Assembly (NCBI GenBank): GCA_003228175.2
Contig: QGNQ01000013.1
Coordinates: 1-42,849 of the forward strand
DNA: 42,849 nt
Origin: Chloroflexota bacterium
GTDB lineage: Bacteria; Chloroflexota; Dehalococcoidia; Bin125
Reading direction: 5' to 3'
Shown: positions 20,949 through 29,888 of the stretch, piece after piece
Numbering within the stretch: position 1 is the first letter of the stretch
Layout of the letters: the number at the start of each line of letters is the position of its first letter
Notes under the pieces: generated by a model
The model's input: only the letters and a program-made list of their open reading frames with translations
Told to the model about the DNA's origin: nothing
Databases searched by the model: none
Made by a program: the position numbers and the translations under genes

Positions 20949-21127
20949 TACACTAGCCGGGCATCGGTCCTGCGACCGAGCCCGGAAGAGCGTTATGCCG
21001 GAACGAGCATATTGAGCGGCAGCCGCCCGGGCATAGATAATCACTGGACTTGCGAACCCACACGAGGATCCGTCTTGGGGACGGGCCTCGCATGGCCGGC
21101 GACCGCCGGCAGGAAGGACCGCCGCCC
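20949..21127 (+). promoter_or_regulatory. Promoter and structured 5' leader of the aldehyde ferredoxin oxidoreductase gene
   Basis: TACACT (20949-20954) matches the -10 used by other genes in the window. Hairpin 1 begins 2 nt after it: CCGGGC + TCGGTC (20957-20969, one bulged A) pairs with GACCGA + GCCCGG (20974-20985), 12 bp with loop CTGC. Hairpin 2: TATGCCGG (20994-21001) pairs with CCGGGCATA (21027-21035, one bulge). About 90 nt more lead to the GTG start, with AGGAAGGA upstream of it. A structured leader of about 165 nt before a pterin-cofactor enzyme could be a cis-regulatory RNA; which kind is not known. Confidence 0.45.
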
Positions 21128-22996
21128 GTGCCCGAAGAACTCGCCTTTAACGGCAAGATCCTGAATGTGAACCTCAGCAACGGAGAGGTCACGCCAGAGG
21201 ACATCCCGGAGCAGATGTACAAGGACTACCTGGGCGGCTACGGCCTGGGTGCACGCCTGCTGTTCGATCGGATCCCGCAAGGTGCGGATCCGATGGGTCC
21301 GGAGAACGTGCTGGGCCTGATGCCCGGTGTGATGACGGGCACGCCGATCTTCGGCAACCGCTTCCAGGCGGTGTGCAAGAGCCCGTCGACGGGCGGCTGG
21401 GGCGACGCCAACTGTGGCGGCGACTTTGGTCCCTATCTGAAGTTCGCGGGCTGGGACGGGATTCTGCTGTACGGGCAGTCGGACAAGCCGGTCTACATCT
21501 TGATCGATGACGACAAGGTGAGCGTGGAGGACGCGTCGGGCTACTGGGGCATGGACGCGATCAGCGCGGAGAAGAAGTTCAAGGACGAGTACGGCAAGAA
21601 GACGTCCGTGGCGCTAATTGGCCAATCGGGCGAGAACCTGTCGTACCTGTCGGGGATCTGCAACGAGCACGGCCGGCTGGCGGCGCGCTCCGGTGTGGGC
21701 GCGGTGATGGGCTCGAAGCGGGTCAAGGCCGTGGTGGTGAAGTCGACGCGGCAGATGATTCAGCAGCACGATAAAGAAGCGCGCGCGATGATGAAGGACT
21801 CGCTGGACAACTTCGCGGCCCCGCTGCGGGACTTCTTCCGCAGCTTCGGGACGACGGGCATCACGGCCGGCTCGGCGCACAGCGGCGACTCGCCGGTGCG
21901 CAACTGGGGCGGGGTGGGTGTCGAGGTCTTCACGGACGTGGCGGGCCTGCAGGGCCCCGTGGTGAACGAGAAGATGACGAAGCACTACGCGTGCTGGCAC
22001 TGCCCGCTGGCCTGCGGCGCGGAGAGTGTGGAGTCGACGAACCCGAAGTACCCGTACCCGAAGAACACGCATCGTCCCGAGTACGAGACGATGGGCGCGT
22101 TTGGGACGATGAACCTGATCAACGACCTGGACTTCCTGATTCACGCCAACCACGTGTGCAACGAGTACGGGCTGGACACGATTGGCGCGGGCGGGGCGAT
22201 TTCGTTCGCGATCGAGTGCTTTGAGAACGGGATCATTACGAAGGAAGACACGGACGGGCTGGAGCTGCGCTGGGGCGGCGACGACGCCGCGATGGACTTG
22301 CTGCACAAGATCGGCAAGCGTGAGGGCTTCGGCGATGTGCTGGCCGACGGCGTGAAGGTCGCGGCGGAGAAGATCGGCAACGGCAGCGAGGCCTACGCGA
22401 TCCACATCGGCGGGCAAGAACTGCCGATGCACGACCCGAAGCTGCAGCCGGAGTTCCACACGACCTACCGCCTGGACCCGACGCCCGCGCGCCACACCCA
22501 GTACGAGGGCAACAGCGTCTTTGGCGGGCCGGCGTACCCCAAGGCGCCGAAGGACTTCCAGGACTACGCCAACCGCGGCGAGCACCACAAGGGCGCCAGC
22601 GAGTACATGCACGTGGTGAATGCAACGGGCATGTGCCAGTTCATCATGATGGCGGCCCCGACGGAGCAGTTCCCGGAGTGGATCAACAAGGTCACGGGCT
22701 GGAACATGACCGGCGATGAGCTGCAGCAGGCCGGCGAGCGGATCGGCAACTTGCGGATGGCGTTTGAGGTGCGGGAAGGCAACAACCCGCTCGCCCGCCA
22801 GGTGCCCAGCCGCCTGACCGGCCAGGAGGGCCAGGCGCAGACGGTGGGCCCGCTGAAGGACGTGATCCTGGACACCGAAACGATGGAGACCGACTTCCTG
22901 GAGGCTTGCGGCTGGGACACGACCAACTGCACGCCGAGCCGCGCCAAGCTGGAGTCGTTGGGCCTGTCGGACGTGGCCGACGCGCTTAAGGTCTAG
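21128..22996 (+). CDS. aor: Tungsten-dependent aldehyde ferredoxin oxidoreductase (AOR family)
   Basis: A 622-residue cytoplasmic enzyme oxidising aldehydes to acids with ferredoxin, using tungsto-bispterin and a [4Fe-4S] cluster. N-domain blocks: NGKILNVNLSNGEVTPEDIP, DYLGGYGLGARLL, ENVLGLMPGVMTGTPIFGNRFQAVCKSPSTGGWGDANCGGDFGPYLKFAGWDGI. Cluster ligands are C289, C292 and C296 (CWHCPLAC) plus C503 (TGMCQF), matching P. furiosus AOR C288/C291/C295/C494. Pterin-binding GAGGAISFAIE and KREGFGDVLADGV are present. The GTG start at 21128 is chosen because AGGAAGGA precedes it; ATG codons further up (21050, 21091) lead into non-family sequence. It stands alone between a long leader and a terminator; no ferredoxin or pterin gene is adjacent. 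Confidence 0.95.
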   Translation: MPEELAFNGKILNVNLSNGEVTPEDIPEQMYKDYLGGYGLGARLLFDRIPQGADPMGPENVLGLMPGVMTGTPIFGNRFQAVCKSPSTGGWGDANCGGDFGPYLKFAGWDGILLYGQSDKPVYILIDDDKVSVEDASGYWGMDAISAEKKFKDEYGKKTSVALIGQSGENLSYLSGICNEHGRLAARSGVGAVMGSKRVKAVVVKSTRQMIQQHDKEARAMMKDSLDNFAAPLRDFFRSFGTTGITAGSAHSGDSPVRNWGGVGVEVFTDVAGLQGPVVNEKMTKHYACWHCPLACGAESVESTNPKYPYPKNTHRPEYETMGAFGTMNLINDLDFLIHANHVCNEYGLDTIGAGGAISFAIECFENGIITKEDTDGLELRWGGDDAAMDLLHKIGKREGFGDVLADGVKVAAEKIGNGSEAYAIHIGGQELPMHDPKLQPEFHTTYRLDPTPARHTQYEGNSVFGGPAYPKAPKDFQDYANRGEHHKGASEYMHVVNATGMCQFIMMAAPTEQFPEWINKVTGWNMTGDELQQAGERIGNLRMAFEVREGNNPLARQVPSRLTGQEGQAQTVGPLKDVILDTETMETDFLEACGWDTTNCTPSRAKLESLGLSDVADALKV

Positions 22997-25001: not shown

Positions 25002-25895
25002 ATGGCCGAGCACCCCGAGCTACAGTTCGAATCGCAACCGGCGCTGCGGCAGCCGCACCTGGTGGTGGCTTGGGCGGGCTGGAACGACGCGGGCGAGGCG
25101 GCGTCGACGGCGGCGCGCTATATGGCGGCGACGATGGACGCGGAGCCGTTCGCGAGCATTGACCCGGAGGAGTTCTACGACTTCACGGAGGCGCGTCCGC
25201 TGGCGCGCTATCGCGACGGCGAACGCGAGATCATGTGGCCGAGCACGGACTTCTACGCGGTGCCGCTGCCGACGCAGGACCATGACGCGATCCTGGCCGT
25301 GGGGATTGAGCCGAACTTCCGCTGGAAGCGCTACATGGGCGCGATGCAGCAGCTGATGACAACGATGGACGTGCGTCTGGTGGTGACGCTGGGCGCGGTG
25401 GCGTCCGGGGTGCCGCACACGCAGGCGGTGCGCATTAGCGGATCCGCGAATACACCGGCGCTGGCGGCACGTTTCGCGATGCACCCTTCGCGCTACGAGG
25501 GGCCAACGGGCATTGTGGGCGTCTTCCACGACGCCTGCCGGCGGGCGGACGTGAGCGGGGTGAGCCTGTGGGCGGCGGTGCCGCACTACCTGCCGGGGAT
25601 CGCGAACCCGCGCGGGGCGCGGGCGCTGCTGGAGCGCCTGGGGGAGATCAGCGGCCTGCCGGTGGACTTCGAGCGGCTGGGACGGCAGGAGCGCCGCTTC
25701 GACGAGCGGGTGCGCGCGGCGATGGAGGAGAGCAGCGAGCTCAGCGCCTACGTGCAGCAGCTGGAGGAGGCGGTGGAGGAGGAGGCGCCGGCGGCGGCCA
25801 AGCCGGCGGAGCTGCCCTCCGCGGAAGGGTTGATCGAGGATCTGGAGAAGTTCCTGCGTCGGAATCGCGACGACGAGGCGGAGGAGCGCCCATGA
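25002..25895 (+). CDS. PAC2-family protein (first copy)
   Basis: A 297-residue protein of the PAC2 (proteasome assembly chaperone 2-like) family, common in Actinobacteria and some other high-GC phyla. Diagnostic blocks: LVVAWAGWNDAGEAASTAARYM (about 21-42), FYDFTEARPLARY, EPNFRWKRYMGAMQQLMT, LGAVASGVPHTQAVRISGSA, YEGPTGIVGVFHDACRRADV, LWAAVPHYLPGIANPRGARALLERL, then an acidic tail. The bacterial function is not established; the fold suggests ligand or protein binding. The start is leaderless by its -10 spacing. The stop overlaps the next start (ATGA, 25892-25895), coupling it to the FTR-like selenoprotein gene. A paralogue with the same layout lies at 38043. Confidence 0.9.
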   Translation: MAEHPELQFESQPALRQPHLVVAWAGWNDAGEAASTAARYMAATMDAEPFASIDPEEFYDFTEARPLARYRDGEREIMWPSTDFYAVPLPTQDHDAILAVGIEPNFRWKRYMGAMQQLMTTMDVRLVVTLGAVASGVPHTQAVRISGSANTPALAARFAMHPSRYEGPTGIVGVFHDACRRADVSGVSLWAAVPHYLPGIANPRGARALLERLGEISGLPVDFERLGRQERRFDERVRAAMEESSELSAYVQQLEEAVEEEAPAAAKPAELPSAEGLIEDLEKFLRRNRDDEAEERP

Positions 25896-26482
25896 CGGAC
25901 GAAGTCCGACCCGAGAGGCCCATCGGGGAGGGGCCCGCTGCCGAGCCGACCGCCGCGCCGCCAGAGCTGAACGCGGTGGAAGAGGTCACCGCAGCGGACC
26001 GGATGGAGGCGTCGCAGAAGAACGTCGACAAGATGTGGAAGTTCGCGCGGAAGTTCGCGGACAAGAGCGGTTCGTTTCTGCACCCGCAGGAGGAGATCAC
26101 GGAGTTTCTGGTGATCGGCCTGGCGAAGCACATCGACGATTTGGGGAAGCCCCTCTGCCCCTGCAACTTCTACGACGACAAAGAGAAAGAGGTCGCGACC
26201 TCGAACTTCTGGATTTGTCCCTGCGAGGAGATGCAGAAGTGGAAGTACTGCCATTGACTGCTGTTCTGCGATGCGGAAGGTCTTCCCATCACCGAACATC
26301 TGCCCACTGACCACGAAGGCCGCGAGATCTACGGTCTGCGCCTGGACCCCGACTCCAGCAAGGGCCGCGCGATCGGCCGGCTGGAAGCGAAGCAGGGCCG
26401 GACGATTCAGAAGCGAGGCGGGAACTCGCAGAGTGGTGGCGCTGAGGCGGGCGGGGCTGAGGCGGGCGAAGTTGGCAGCTGA
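25892..26482 (+). CDS. Ferredoxin-thioredoxin reductase catalytic-chain homologue, predicted selenoprotein (Sec122)
   Basis: Predicted 196 residues with an in-frame TGA at codon 122 (26255-26257) read as selenocysteine. After a disordered first 35 residues, the FTR catalytic-chain core runs from about 40 to 150: MWKFARKFADKSG, PLCPCNFYDDKEKEVA, FWICPCEEMQKW, KYCH-U-LLFCDAEG. The motif is CPC-X17-CPC-X8-CH-U; the known family is CPC-X16-CPC-X8-CHC. By homology C89, C109, C111 and C120 bind the [4Fe-4S] cluster, and C91 and U122 are the active-site redox pair (C57/C87 in the cyanobacterial enzyme). The frame continues for 74 codons after TGA to TGA 26480. A SECIS-like hairpin follows the Sec codon. 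The last 20 residues are a GGAEAG repeat. Start ATG 25892 overlaps the PAC2 stop. Alternatives are a true stop, a pseudogene or a TGC-to-TGA error. No FTR variable chain or sel genes are present here. Confidence 0.85.
26270..26290 (+). promoter_or_regulatory. Bacterial SECIS-like hairpin
   Basis: Stem GATG/CATC (26270-26273 with 26287-26290), one unpaired C (26274), stem GGAA/TTCC (26275-26278 with 26283-26286), apical loop GGTC (26279-26282). The loop begins 21 nt after the TGA. E. coli fdhF has the same plan: lower stem, one bulged base on the 5' side, upper stem, GGUC loop, about 18 nt after UGA. It lies within the coding sequence, as bacterial SECIS elements do, and should bind SelB. Confidence 0.8.
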
Positions 26483-26590: not shown

Positions 26591-26896
26591 ATGGCGAAAA
26601 AGAGTCAACTCGCTCGCGACAAGAAGCGTCGTGAGATGCACGCCAAGCACCAGGTCCAGCGCGCGGATCTGAAGGCGAAGCTGCGGGAGTCCTGGGACAA
26701 TCCGCAGGCCCGCTGGGAGATCCAGGTGGCGCTGCAGAAGCTGCCTCGGAACTCCAGCCCGTCGCGCCTGAAGAACCGCTGCGAAGTGACGGGGCGGTCG
26801 CGCGGGTACATGCGCAAGTTCGGTCTGTCGCGGATCACGTTCCGCGAGATGGCGTCGCAGGGCCTGCTGCCGGGGATTCGCAAGTCGTCTTGGTAG
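26591..26896 (+). CDS. rpsN: 30S ribosomal protein S14 (zinc-independent form)
   Basis: A 101-residue S14 of the long type: [14 protein letters not shown] at the start and [40 protein letters not shown] at the end. The CxxC...CxxC zinc ribbon of the short form is absent, so it is the C-minus form. It binds 16S rRNA in the 30S head. It lies outside a ribosomal operon, which often marks a paralogue made under zinc limitation; I see no obvious Zur-type palindrome upstream. GGAGAA precedes the ATG, and a -10-like TACCCT lies near 26527. Confidence 0.95.
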
Positions 26897-27139: not shown

Positions 27140-28753
27140 ATGTCCTTGATCGCCGGCATTCCCCGCCCTCTTGGCCGCCACGGGTCGCGGGGATCGGCGT
27201 CCTTCGTCTGGATTCCGGCGCTGATTGTCGCGGCGGCGATGACGATCCCGCTGATCTACCTGCTGGTGCGCGCCGCCGACGCCGACGCGGACGCCTGGAA
27301 CAGCCTGCTACGCGACAGCACCTGGCGGCTGTTGGGCAACACGGTTCTGCTCGCGCTGAGTGTGACGGCCGCGTCGATCGCGATCGCGCTGCCGGTGGCC
27401 TGGCTGGTGGTGCGGACCGACCTGCCGCTGCGACGGGTCTGGATCGTGCTGGCGGTGCTGCCACTCGTCTTCCCGTCGTTCGTGGGGGCGCTGGCGTACC
27501 TGGCCGCGACGGGGCCTCGGGGAACGATCGCCAGCATCTTGGGCCCGCTGGGGGTTGATTCGGTGCCGCAGATTACGGGCTTCGAAGGGTCGTTTCTGGC
27601 GCTGACGCTGTTCAGCTACCCCTACCTCCTGCTGACGCTACTGGCCGGGATGCGCGGTATCGATCCGTCGATGGAGGAGGCGTCGCGGGCGCTGGGCAAG
27701 GGCGCCTGGCGGACGTTCTGGTGGGTGGTGGTGCCGCAGTTGCGGGTGCCGCTGGCGGCTGGGTCGTTGCTGGTGGCGCTGTATGTGGTGAGTGACTTTG
27801 GGGCGGTCTCGATCCTGCGCTTCGACACCTTCACGCGGGCGATTTTCGTGCAGATGCAGAGCAGCTTCGACCGGTCGGCGGCGGCGGTGCTGGGGCTGGA
27901 ACTGGTGGCGCTGGTGGGGGTGATCCTGGTGGTAGAGGCGGTCACGCGGTCCCGGGGTCGCTATTACGCGGGTGGGACATCGGCGGCGCGTCGGCCGCGA
28001 CGGGTGCGGCTGGGGCGGTGGCGCTGGGCAGCGCTGGGATTCCTGACGCTGCTGGCGCTGGCGGCGCTGGTGACGCCGATCGTGGCGCTGCTGGACTGGC
28101 TGATCCGGGGCCTGCAGAACGACGAGCCGTTGGGCGAGTTGTGGTCTGGCGCGTGGCATTCGCTGTCGGTGTCGCTGGTGGCGGCCGGGATCGCGGTGGC
28201 GGCGGCGTTGCCGGTGGCGATCGTGGCGGTGCGCAAGCGTGGGCCGGTGGCGGGGCTGATCGAGCGGGTGAGTTATGTGGGCTTCGCGCTGCCGGGCATC
28301 GTGGTGGCGCTGTCGATGGTGTTTTTCGCCTTGAACGTGGTGCCGGGGTTGTACCAGAGTTGGACGGTGCTGATCTTCGCGTATCTGGTGCTGTTCCTGC
28401 CGCAGTCGATCGGGCCGCTGCGGGCGTCGTTGGTGCGGGTGCGGCCCAGCATTGAGGAGGCGGCGAGCGGGCTGGGACGATCGCCGGGCTCCGTGCTGAC
28501 GACGATCACGCTGCCGCTGATCGTGCCGGGCGTCCTGAGCGGGTTCGCGCTGGTCTTCCTGACGACGATGAAGGAGCTCCCGGCGACGCTGCTGCTCGCG
28601 CCGACGGAGTTCGACACCTTGTCCACGCAGGTTTGGACGCATGCGGACGCATCGTTCTTCGCACGGGCGGCGGCGCCGGGTCTGCTGCTGATCGGCCTGG
28701 CGGCGATCCCGATGGCGCTAATCCTGCTCCGCGAGCGAGGCCTGCGTGACTGA
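27140..28753 (+). CDS. Fe3+-type ABC transporter permease (fused double permease, FbpB-like)
   Basis: A 537-residue inner-membrane protein made of two homologous permease halves with about 12 membrane segments. Each half has an EAA loop: EEASRALGKGAWRTFWWVVVPQLRVPL (about 178-204) and EEAASGLGRSPGSVLTTITLPLIVPG (about 437-462). This is the layout of FbpB/SfuB-type ferric iron permeases (and of putative thiamine permeases). The ATG at 27140 has no strong ribosome binding site. The ATPase gene overlaps its end by 8 bp. No binding-protein gene is in this operon. Confidence 0.9.
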   Translation: MSLIAGIPRPLGRHGSRGSASFVWIPALIVAAAMTIPLIYLLVRAADADADAWNSLLRDSTWRLLGNTVLLALSVTAASIAIALPVAWLVVRTDLPLRRVWIVLAVLPLVFPSFVGALAYLAATGPRGTIASILGPLGVDSVPQITGFEGSFLALTLFSYPYLLLTLLAGMRGIDPSMEEASRALGKGAWRTFWWVVVPQLRVPLAAGSLLVALYVVSDFGAVSILRFDTFTRAIFVQMQSSFDRSAAAVLGLELVALVGVILVVEAVTRSRGRYYAGGTSAARRPRRVRLGRWRWAALGFLTLLALAALVTPIVALLDWLIRGLQNDEPLGELWSGAWHSLSVSLVAAGIAVAAALPVAIVAVRKRGPVAGLIERVSYVGFALPGIVVALSMVFFALNVVPGLYQSWTVLIFAYLVLFLPQSIGPLRASLVRVRPSIEEAASGLGRSPGSVLTTITLPLIVPGVLSGFALVFLTTMKELPATLLLAPTEFDTLSTQVWTHADASFFARAAAPGLLLIGLAAIPMALILLRERGLRD

Positions 28754-29888
28754 GTCGTCCACTCCGGCGCTCGAATGCGCAGGCCTGCGGAAGTCGTTTG
28801 GCGACGTGCCGGCGGTCCACGACGTCTCGCTGGAGGTGCGCCCGGGCGAGTTGCTGGCCTTGCTGGGGCCAAGCGGCTGCGGCAAGACGACGACGCTGCG
28901 GTTGATCGCCGGTTTCGAGCGCGCGGACGCGGGCACGGTGCGGATCGGCGGGCGAACGGTCTTGGATGCGCGCAACTCGCTGCCGCCGGAGTCGCGGCGG
29001 GTGGGGATCGTGTTTCAGGATTACGCGCTGTTCCCGCACCTGAGCGTGGGGGCGAACGTGGCGTACGGCCTGGACAGGCCCGCTTCGCCACAGGGTGCCG
29101 GGGGTGCGGGGTCGCGGCTGGCGGGCATGGCGCATCGGTATCTGCCGCGCAGTCCCCGCGGAGGCGATCCGCGGGTGGCGGAGGCGCTGGCTCTCGTGTC
29201 GCTGGGGGGGCTGGCGGATCGCTACCCACACGAGCTGTCGGGGGGGGAGGCGCAGCGGGTGGCGCTGGCGCGCGCGCTTGCGCCGCGTCCGGAGCTGATT
29301 TTGCTGGATGAGCCGTTCTCGAACCTGGATTCGCGGCTGCGGGTGGCGGTGCGGGCGGAGGTGCGGGCGATCCTCAAGCGCGCGGGCGCGGCGGCGGTCT
29401 TCGTGACGCATGACCAGGAGGAGGCATTCAGCCTGGCGGACCGCGTAGCGGTGATGTGGGAGGGACGGGTGGCGCAGGTGGGGACGCCATCCGAGATCTA
29501 CCGGCGACCGGCGACGCGGGCGGTCGCGGCCTTCGTAGGCGATGCGGATTTTCTGCCTGGTGCAATAGAGAACGGGGTCGTGCGGACGGAGATTGGTCCG
29601 ATGCATCCGGCCGACGCCGCCGGGATGGATGGCCCGGTGGAGGTGATGCTGCGGCCGGAGGCGGTGCAGGTCCGCGAGCAGCCGCCGATCGATGCGGCGG
29701 ACGACTGGGTCTGGGGCGAGGTCAGCGCGCACGAGTACTACGGCCACGACCAGATGATCCGCGTGCGGCTGAGGAGTGGCGGGCAGGTACACGCGCGCTT
29801 GGGGCCGGAGGCGGCGCATGCCATGGGGGACCGGGTCTGGGTGCGGGCGCAGGGTCCGGTGGTGGTATTCGCGGCGGCGGACGACTAG
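28746..29888 (+). CDS. Fe3+-type ABC transporter ATP-binding protein (FbpC-like)
   Basis: A 380-residue ABC ATPase starting at GTG 28746 inside the permease gene. Walker A is GPSGCGKTT (about 38-46), the Q-loop is VFQDYALFPHL, the signature is ELSGGEAQRVALARAL, Walker B is LILLDEPFSNLD and the H-loop is VTHDQEEAFSLADR. A C-terminal regulatory TOBE-like region (about 290-380: VEVMLRPEAVQV, GEVSAHEYYGHDQMIRVRL) fits the CUT1/Fe3+ group. An insert of about 30 residues (QGAGGAGSRLAGMAHRYLPR) sits before the signature. It powers the double permease upstream; the substrate, probably Fe3+, is inferred from family resemblance. Confidence 0.92.
   Translation: MTESSTPALECAGLRKSFGDVPAVHDVSLEVRPGELLALLGPSGCGKTTTLRLIAGFERADAGTVRIGGRTVLDARNSLPPESRRVGIVFQDYALFPHLSVGANVAYGLDRPASPQGAGGAGSRLAGMAHRYLPRSPRGGDPRVAEALALVSLGGLADRYPHELSGGEAQRVALARALAPRPELILLDEPFSNLDSRLRVAVRAEVRAILKRAGAAAVFVTHDQEEAFSLADRVAVMWEGRVAQVGTPSEIYRRPATRAVAAFVGDADFLPGAIENGVVRTEIGPMHPADAAGMDGPVEVMLRPEAVQVREQPPIDAADDWVWGEVSAHEYYGHDQMIRVRLRSGGQVHARLGPEAAHAMGDRVWVRAQGPVVVFAAADD

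Follow-up and report, generated by a model that had tools for sequence, protein, structure and literature searches.

The window, a stretch of 42,849 nucleotides of DNA from a Chloroflexota bacterium, contains a gene (25892-26482, forward strand) that, judged from its sequence, very probably uses selenocysteine (Sec) in the active site of an iron-sulfur disulfide reductase. It is highly likely that the product is a selenoprotein of the ferredoxin-thioredoxin reductase (FTR) catalytic-chain type, with Sec at codon 122, a predicted [4Fe-4S] cluster and thioredoxin as its likely substrate.

The gene and its redox site

The features of the locus used in this analysis are as follows.

25002-25895, forward strand: PAC2-family gene, whose stop codon TGA shares bases with the FTR start (ATGA)
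25892-26482, forward strand: selenoprotein FTR catalytic-chain-like gene, 196 aa through the TGA
26156-26164, forward strand: CPC, residues 89-91 (Cys codons 26156-26158 and 26162-26164)
26216-26224, forward strand: CPC, residues 109-111
26249-26251, forward strand: Cys120, two residues ahead of Sec
26255-26257, forward strand: codon 122, a TGA within the frame and the predicted Sec codon of the second redox position
26267-26269, forward strand: Cys126, four residues past Sec
26270-26290, forward strand: SECIS hairpin with GGAA/UUCC stem, GGUC loop (26279-26282) and bulged base (26274)
26591-26896, forward strand: ribosomal protein S14 gene, downstream of the FTR gene

With the TGA read as Sec, the frame 25892-26479 was translated into 196 residues, followed by its own stop (TGA 26480-26482). 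The true start is uncertain, because the match in most relatives starts only at residue 25-28. The protein reads CPC (89-91), 17 residues, CPC (109-111), 8 residues, C120-H121-U122 and then LLFCDAEG. Every position of the CPC-x16/17-CPC-x8-CHC motif is kept, the last Cys as TGA, such that the CHC of FTR becomes CHU; the spacing between the CPC motifs was 16 residues, not 17, in 6/8 rows first aligned. In a profile search of the genome from which the window derives, PF02943 matched across the TGA (E 2.7e-21), and the read-through protein scored 81.4 bits against a curated cut-off of 22. FeThRed_B was the only Pfam domain. The frame, motif and TGA had been reported in an earlier, sequence-only reading, and were confirmed by the translation and the PF02943 match. 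That reading also held that the other motif cysteines were retained, and all five are indeed present in the read-through protein.

U122 was aligned with the last Cys of CHC in the solved FTR catalytic chains 7bzk, 1dj7 and 2puk in each of three alignments, which bears out the further claim that the TGA replaces the second redox-active Cys. We take the position of Sec122 to be that of Cys87 in FTR numbering. By the roles given in the FTR literature, Cys89 is presumably a cluster ligand and Cys91 the partner redox Cys; Cys109 and Cys111 are likewise taken as cluster ligands, and Cys120 as the fourth. A structure model built from 30 aligned rows was of moderate confidence (pLDDT 72). When this model was searched against the PDB with Foldseek, FTR catalytic chains ranked first (7bzk, E 9.7e-7); compared with 7bzk, the moderate-confidence model gave a TM of 0.73 by target length and an rmsd of 9.5 over 109 columns. 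These sequences suggest a plain exchange of Sec for Cys in an FTR-like reductase. The window's genome holds a second FTR-like gene (C6:63585-63824, 28 bits) with Cys and no internal stop.

The redox-site codon among relatives

Twenty genomes of the family, including that of the window, were searched. The FTR-like protein was found in all 20, with TGA at the site in each of the 18 whose match reaches it; the site is missing from two genomes with cut contigs, which stop ahead of it in G012 and start beyond it in G018. A wider homologue scan covered 84,980 species with one genome each; eight aligned family rows served as query, together with two peptide patterns. It returned 69 loci, 64 of them with Chloroflexota names, which places the window in this phylum, most probably in the class Dehalococcoidia. 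L181 and L183 do not show the site. Among the 67 readable named loci the codon was TGA in 58 and TGT or TGC in nine, a Sec share that is not unbiased, since Sec rows were the seed of the scan and two peptide patterns were applied. The alternation of Cys and Sec at residue 122, which the earlier reading had proposed to look for, is thus present. A plasmid collection was also searched and gave no match. The nine Cys loci were distributed as follows.

Chloroflexota: L115, L142, L156, L163
Hydrogenothermaceae: L176, L179
Mariprofundaceae: L178
Other bacteria: L180 (goat rumen), L182

One metagenome-assembled genome (SJ354) has a Cys copy (L156) plus a Sec copy (L175), and Sec and Cys copies of the enzyme also occur together in genome G488 (L230, L231).

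The Sec rows used below number 60: the window, the 58 TGA loci and L184. Residue 126 is Cys in 58/60 Sec rows and Val or Thr in 12/12 Cys rows, and rubredoxin-type Sec rows carry Val at the matching position. Cys126 was considered as a resolving Cys tied to Sec; the tree offers one independent pair, so that no conclusion is possible.

A tree of 72 rows of the window protein's branch was made by quick search, with six Cys rows as its root; a branch with SH-aLRT 94 separates the 60 Sec rows from the rest. A careful tree of 35 rows, among them 21 of the 60 Sec ones, was rooted on plant and cyanobacterial FTR. Here the Cys rows were outermost and two changes were counted, whereas 58% of the bootstrap trees had a single change; a single Sec clade was not rejected (p-AU 0.475). 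Both trees fit a single gain of Sec from Cys, without amounting to proof of it. At face value, a wide tree of 52 rows gives the opposite picture, with Cys rows nested inside Sec rows, but this tree has long branches and a midpoint root that is not usable. Taken with that root and those branches, it needs six changes at the last redox position and one at the first.

Other Sec designs were sought by a PF02943 search that was not seeded by the window's relatives. Over 400 genomes drawn from the phylum, 35 had PF02943 matches and 10 of these had a match with TGA. All ten TGA codons fell on a redox position; the motif is CHU in six, CYU in three, which are FTR-rubredoxin proteins (L209, L211, L212), and CPU in one (L213, genome G034). 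In the class, 191/393 genomes had PF02943 matches; among the 150 matches listed, 72 had one TGA, 11 had two, one had TAG and 66 had none. Nine of the 11 double-TGA rows among the matches listed were examined (L220-L226, L237, L239), and all nine read CPU and CIU. After the second TGA, all nine carry GAGTTTCTTCG, inside what by eye appears to be a hairpin. L220, the sole double-TGA row scanned with NF041072, scored 218 bits. Chloroflexota thus also hold predicted double-Sec, first-position-Sec and rubredoxin-fused Sec forms of FTR. The first-position form (L213, G034:C292) reads CPU and then CRC, has by eye a glutaredoxin-like tail, and scored 97 bits against NF041072, below the cut-off of 160. 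In the FTR-rubredoxin proteins L209, L211, L212, L227, L228 and L229 the TGA occupies the second redox position (CYU); L211 has a GGUC-loop hairpin after the TGA, with a weak z-score of -0.9.

SECIS element and decoding of the TGA

The TGA is separated from the SECIS loop by 21 nt. The 12-mer GGAAGGTCTTCC (GGAA-GGUC-UUCC) follows the TGA in 60/60 Sec rows and 0/9 Cys rows, and folds as a 4-bp stem capped by the GGUC loop, with a bulge and a lower stem beneath. The SECIS of E. coli fdhF likewise has a GGUC loop. In the lower stem, pair 18:34 is U-A in 51/60 and C-G in 6/60 Sec rows, and base 33 is able to pair with 19 or 20 in all 60.

Pairs were counted in 39/60 Sec rows, 32 of them distinct. 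Paired cells made up 93.8%. Covariation was 0.211 vs 0.089 in shuffled alignments and double-changed cells numbered 20 vs 8.0, with 0/500 shuffles as high for either measure. Sliding the hairpin by 1 to 3 columns gave a covariation of 0.059 at most, and an alternative bulge placement gave 0.088 vs 0.057 shuffled, a smaller excess than the main version. Two of the five structure measures were no better than shuffles (both-side pair changes, 249/500; further pair types, 192/500). The outermost pair, 16:36, is broken in 11/32 distinct rows, and the lower stem in the form drawn is missing from three rows whose codon there is ACG. Folding energy alone was a weak sign: the 48-nt stretch had an MFE of -14.4 kcal/mol (z -2.4) and the 27-nt stretch one of -8.1 kcal/mol (z -1.6).

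The strongest SECIS sign was synonymous constraint at the codon level. Third-base changes were counted along a tree of the 60 Sec rows for codons -45 to +29 relative to the Sec codon. They were absent at +6, +7, +8 and +9, alone among 71 degenerate codons (median 11), and these four invariant codons cover most of the SECIS hairpin. Limits for bacterial SECIS elements are given in the available part of PMC13188914: a loop of 3-9 nt with G in its first two positions, an upper stem of 4-16 bp, a spacing of 16-37 nt and MFE <= -7.5. The hairpin lies within all of these limits, with its GGUC loop, an upper stem of 4 bp, or 8 bp if the pairs beyond the bulge are included, and a spacing of 21 nt. A predicted SECIS element is therefore clear, and goes beyond what the earlier reading mentioned.

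That reading had also proposed a search for selA, selB, selC and selD. Three of the four were found in the window's own genome over their cut-offs: selA (C2:17037-18401, 545 bits), selB (C2:98156-99238, 319 bits) and selD (C8:27124-28056), which itself has an in-frame TGA, in the motif CGG-U-ASK. The fourth, selC, was found in part only. Contig C61 starts inside a tRNA-Sec (C61:1-85), which scored 40.5 bits vs a gathering score of 47, has by eye a TCA anticodon and is not called by ARAGORN. From the anticodon stem on it is near-identical to the tRNA-Sec of a genus relative. Its first 18 bases differ and by eye resemble the D arm of another tRNA; we tentatively take them for a contig-end artefact. 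The two matches over the tRNA-Sec gathering score in this genome are tRNA-Ser and tRNA-Gly by ARAGORN. Across the 20 family genomes, selA was over cut-off in 20, selB in 19 and selD in 18 (not G012 or G016), and a tRNA-Sec match at E <= 1e-8 was found in 17, the window's genome being among the three without. From the 17 genomes having one, seven whole loci were submitted to ARAGORN, and tRNA-SeC was called in 7/7. In G016, a family genome of 6 contigs, selA, selB, tRNA-Sec and the Sec-FTR are present, with no selD over cut-off.

These data bear on how the TGA is read. By the bacterial code the frame would end at the TGA, which could be a true stop, a sequencing error or the mark of a pseudogene. 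We give this almost no credence: the same TGA stands in 60 rows from many separate assemblies, which refutes a sequencing error, and the sequence past it is conserved, with synonymous constraint at four codons. It is also very improbable that a suppressor tRNA or an altered genetic code makes the UGA specify Cys, or some other amino acid, in place of Sec. The incomplete tRNA-Sec of the genome and the Cys found at the site in other relatives would agree with such decoding; however, TGA terminates both the upstream PAC2 frame and the FTR-like gene itself, SelA, SelB and SelD are present, and the SelB-type hairpin tracks the TGA (60/60 Sec rows vs 0/9 Cys rows). Insertion of Sec is the reading that we prefer, and the frame, homology, site, SECIS element, Sec machinery and alternation of Cys and Sec on which it is built can all be read directly from the DNA.

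Substrate, mechanism and known systems

The order PAC2-FTR-S14 is kept in near relatives (PAC2 in 18/69 and S14 in 16/69 loci); as pointers to the function of the FTR-like gene, these neighbours gave no hint. The window also holds an aldehyde ferredoxin oxidoreductase gene (21050-22993) and, after S14, ABC transporter permease and ATPase genes (27140-29885). Near relatives have similar ABC genes past S14, plus a solute-binding protein gene. Neighbour ORFs were also clustered all against all, with a noisy outcome owing to overlapping frames; one representative from each of nine clusters was run against Pfam and eight matched.

Thioredoxin is the likely substrate, as its gene adjoins the predicted Sec-FTR gene in 22/67 relatives. 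In these loci, all of them Sec, the other strand carries the thioredoxin motif FWAPWCGPC no more than 1.25 kb downstream. The motif is farther off in L128, L168 and L171, and the cut locus L183 has one. The neighbour in L132, the one representative scanned, matched PF00085 at 112 bits. None of the 9 Cys loci showed the motif, L142 holding only 325 bases on that side. The Sec reading could be right and the substrate still be something other than thioredoxin: a small disulfide, or a different protein, glutaredoxin-like or otherwise. FTR-domain enzymes joined to rubredoxin and glutaredoxin do exist (4tpu, 7pwe; L213), and the thioredoxin motif was absent from the window and from the examined flanks of the 18 nearest, PAC2-bearing loci. 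Against this stand the 22 loci with an adjoining motif, the closest solved structures, which are thioredoxin-reducing chains, and a WCGPC thioredoxin in the window's own genome (C5:13235). Another substrate is therefore unlikely, though much less so than the other decodings of the TGA.

It is possible that FTR is the main thioredoxin reducer in these organisms. No NADPH thioredoxin reductase was found over the curated cut-off in 20/20 family genomes, and none at 1e-10 in the window's genome, which is 84.7% complete, so that absences from it are weak. Proteins resembling the reductase scored 268-295 bits, below the cut-off of 343, in 12/20 family genomes.

For the preferred reading, in which thioredoxin is reduced by an FTR-type selenoprotein, we infer the cluster, mechanism, substrate and electron donor as follows. 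From the sequence, SelB and Sec-tRNA(Sec) would bind the hairpin 21 nt behind the UGA and insert Sec at codon 122. The predicted [4Fe-4S] cluster would be held by Cys89, Cys109, Cys111 and Cys120, and Cys91 and Sec122 are predicted to form a selenenylsulfide. By analogy with FTR, reduced ferredoxin would supply the cluster with one electron at a time, the selenenylsulfide would open and Cys91 would attack the substrate disulfide. Sec122 would rest at the cluster and then resolve the mixed disulfide. It is plausible, as the earlier reading proposed, that Sec would alter the cluster chemistry. A bolder proposal is that Sec entered the FTR redox pair of Chloroflexota several times, each with its own SECIS, giving Cys/Cys, Cys/Sec, Sec/Cys and Sec/Sec forms, that the Sec enzyme of the window's clade replaces NADPH thioredoxin reductase as main thioredoxin reducer, and that selenolate-cluster binding is part of the mechanism. 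We put this forward tentatively, as rather less than probable in its entirety.

The sequence-only reading knew of no described selenoprotein FTR; such proteins had in fact been predicted. In 2008, Zhang and Gladyshev predicted a Sec-FTR from two Global Ocean Sampling sequences, one with Sec at both redox positions, according to the available part of PMC2398784, and NCBIfam holds a double-Sec model, NF041072. In the available parts of PMC9312934 and PMC13188914 the family appears in review tables with the motif CxU, and the latter places it under NF041072. Ferredoxin is not mentioned in PMC12013277, nor in the available part of PMC1794560, where three selenoproteins are counted in Chloroflexi. 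No paper on a Chloroflexota Sec-FTR was found by title or abstract in literature largely outside subscription journals, and none on a Desulfotalea glutaredoxin/FTR fusion in the literature searched.

Like the window protein, the ocean Sec-FTR is described in the available part of PMC2398784 as an FTR catalytic subunit with Sec at a redox-active Cys and a predicted bacterial SECIS; the single-Sec ocean sequence in that part may belong to the window protein's clade. NF041072 (FtrB_double_U) is likewise an FTR-family selenoprotein, with a member (L220) in the same class, but the window protein has one Sec, with Cys91 at the first position, and scored 29.2 bits against a cut-off of 160. In the wide tree, with its long branches, the two types lie on different branches. 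The 4tpu-type FTR-rubredoxin reductases share the FTR domain, and some members in the class have TGA at the same site; they have a C-terminal rubredoxin-like part, whereas the window protein has only FeThRed_B by Pfam. The FTR catalytic chain of chloroplasts and cyanobacteria (7bzk, 1dj7, 2puk) has the same domain, Cys motif and fold as the window protein, with Cys in place of Sec. That chain works with a variable chain. FTR is the textbook case of a cluster that cleaves a disulfide in one-electron steps.

As far as was found, the previous evidence for Sec-FTR consists of two ocean sequences plus a single curated model for the double-Sec form. The window protein and its relatives add a predicted single-Sec FTR kept across a large clade, with close Cys homologues and unusually strong sequence evidence, that for the SECIS reaching down to the codon level. 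Standard gene calling would end Sec-FTRs one residue early, and others are therefore probably mis-annotated too. As the single-Sec clade has close Cys homologues, the Cys and Sec forms of one enzyme become directly comparable, and Sec, placed on the cluster side, would offer a natural way to probe the one-electron disulfide cleavage of FTR.
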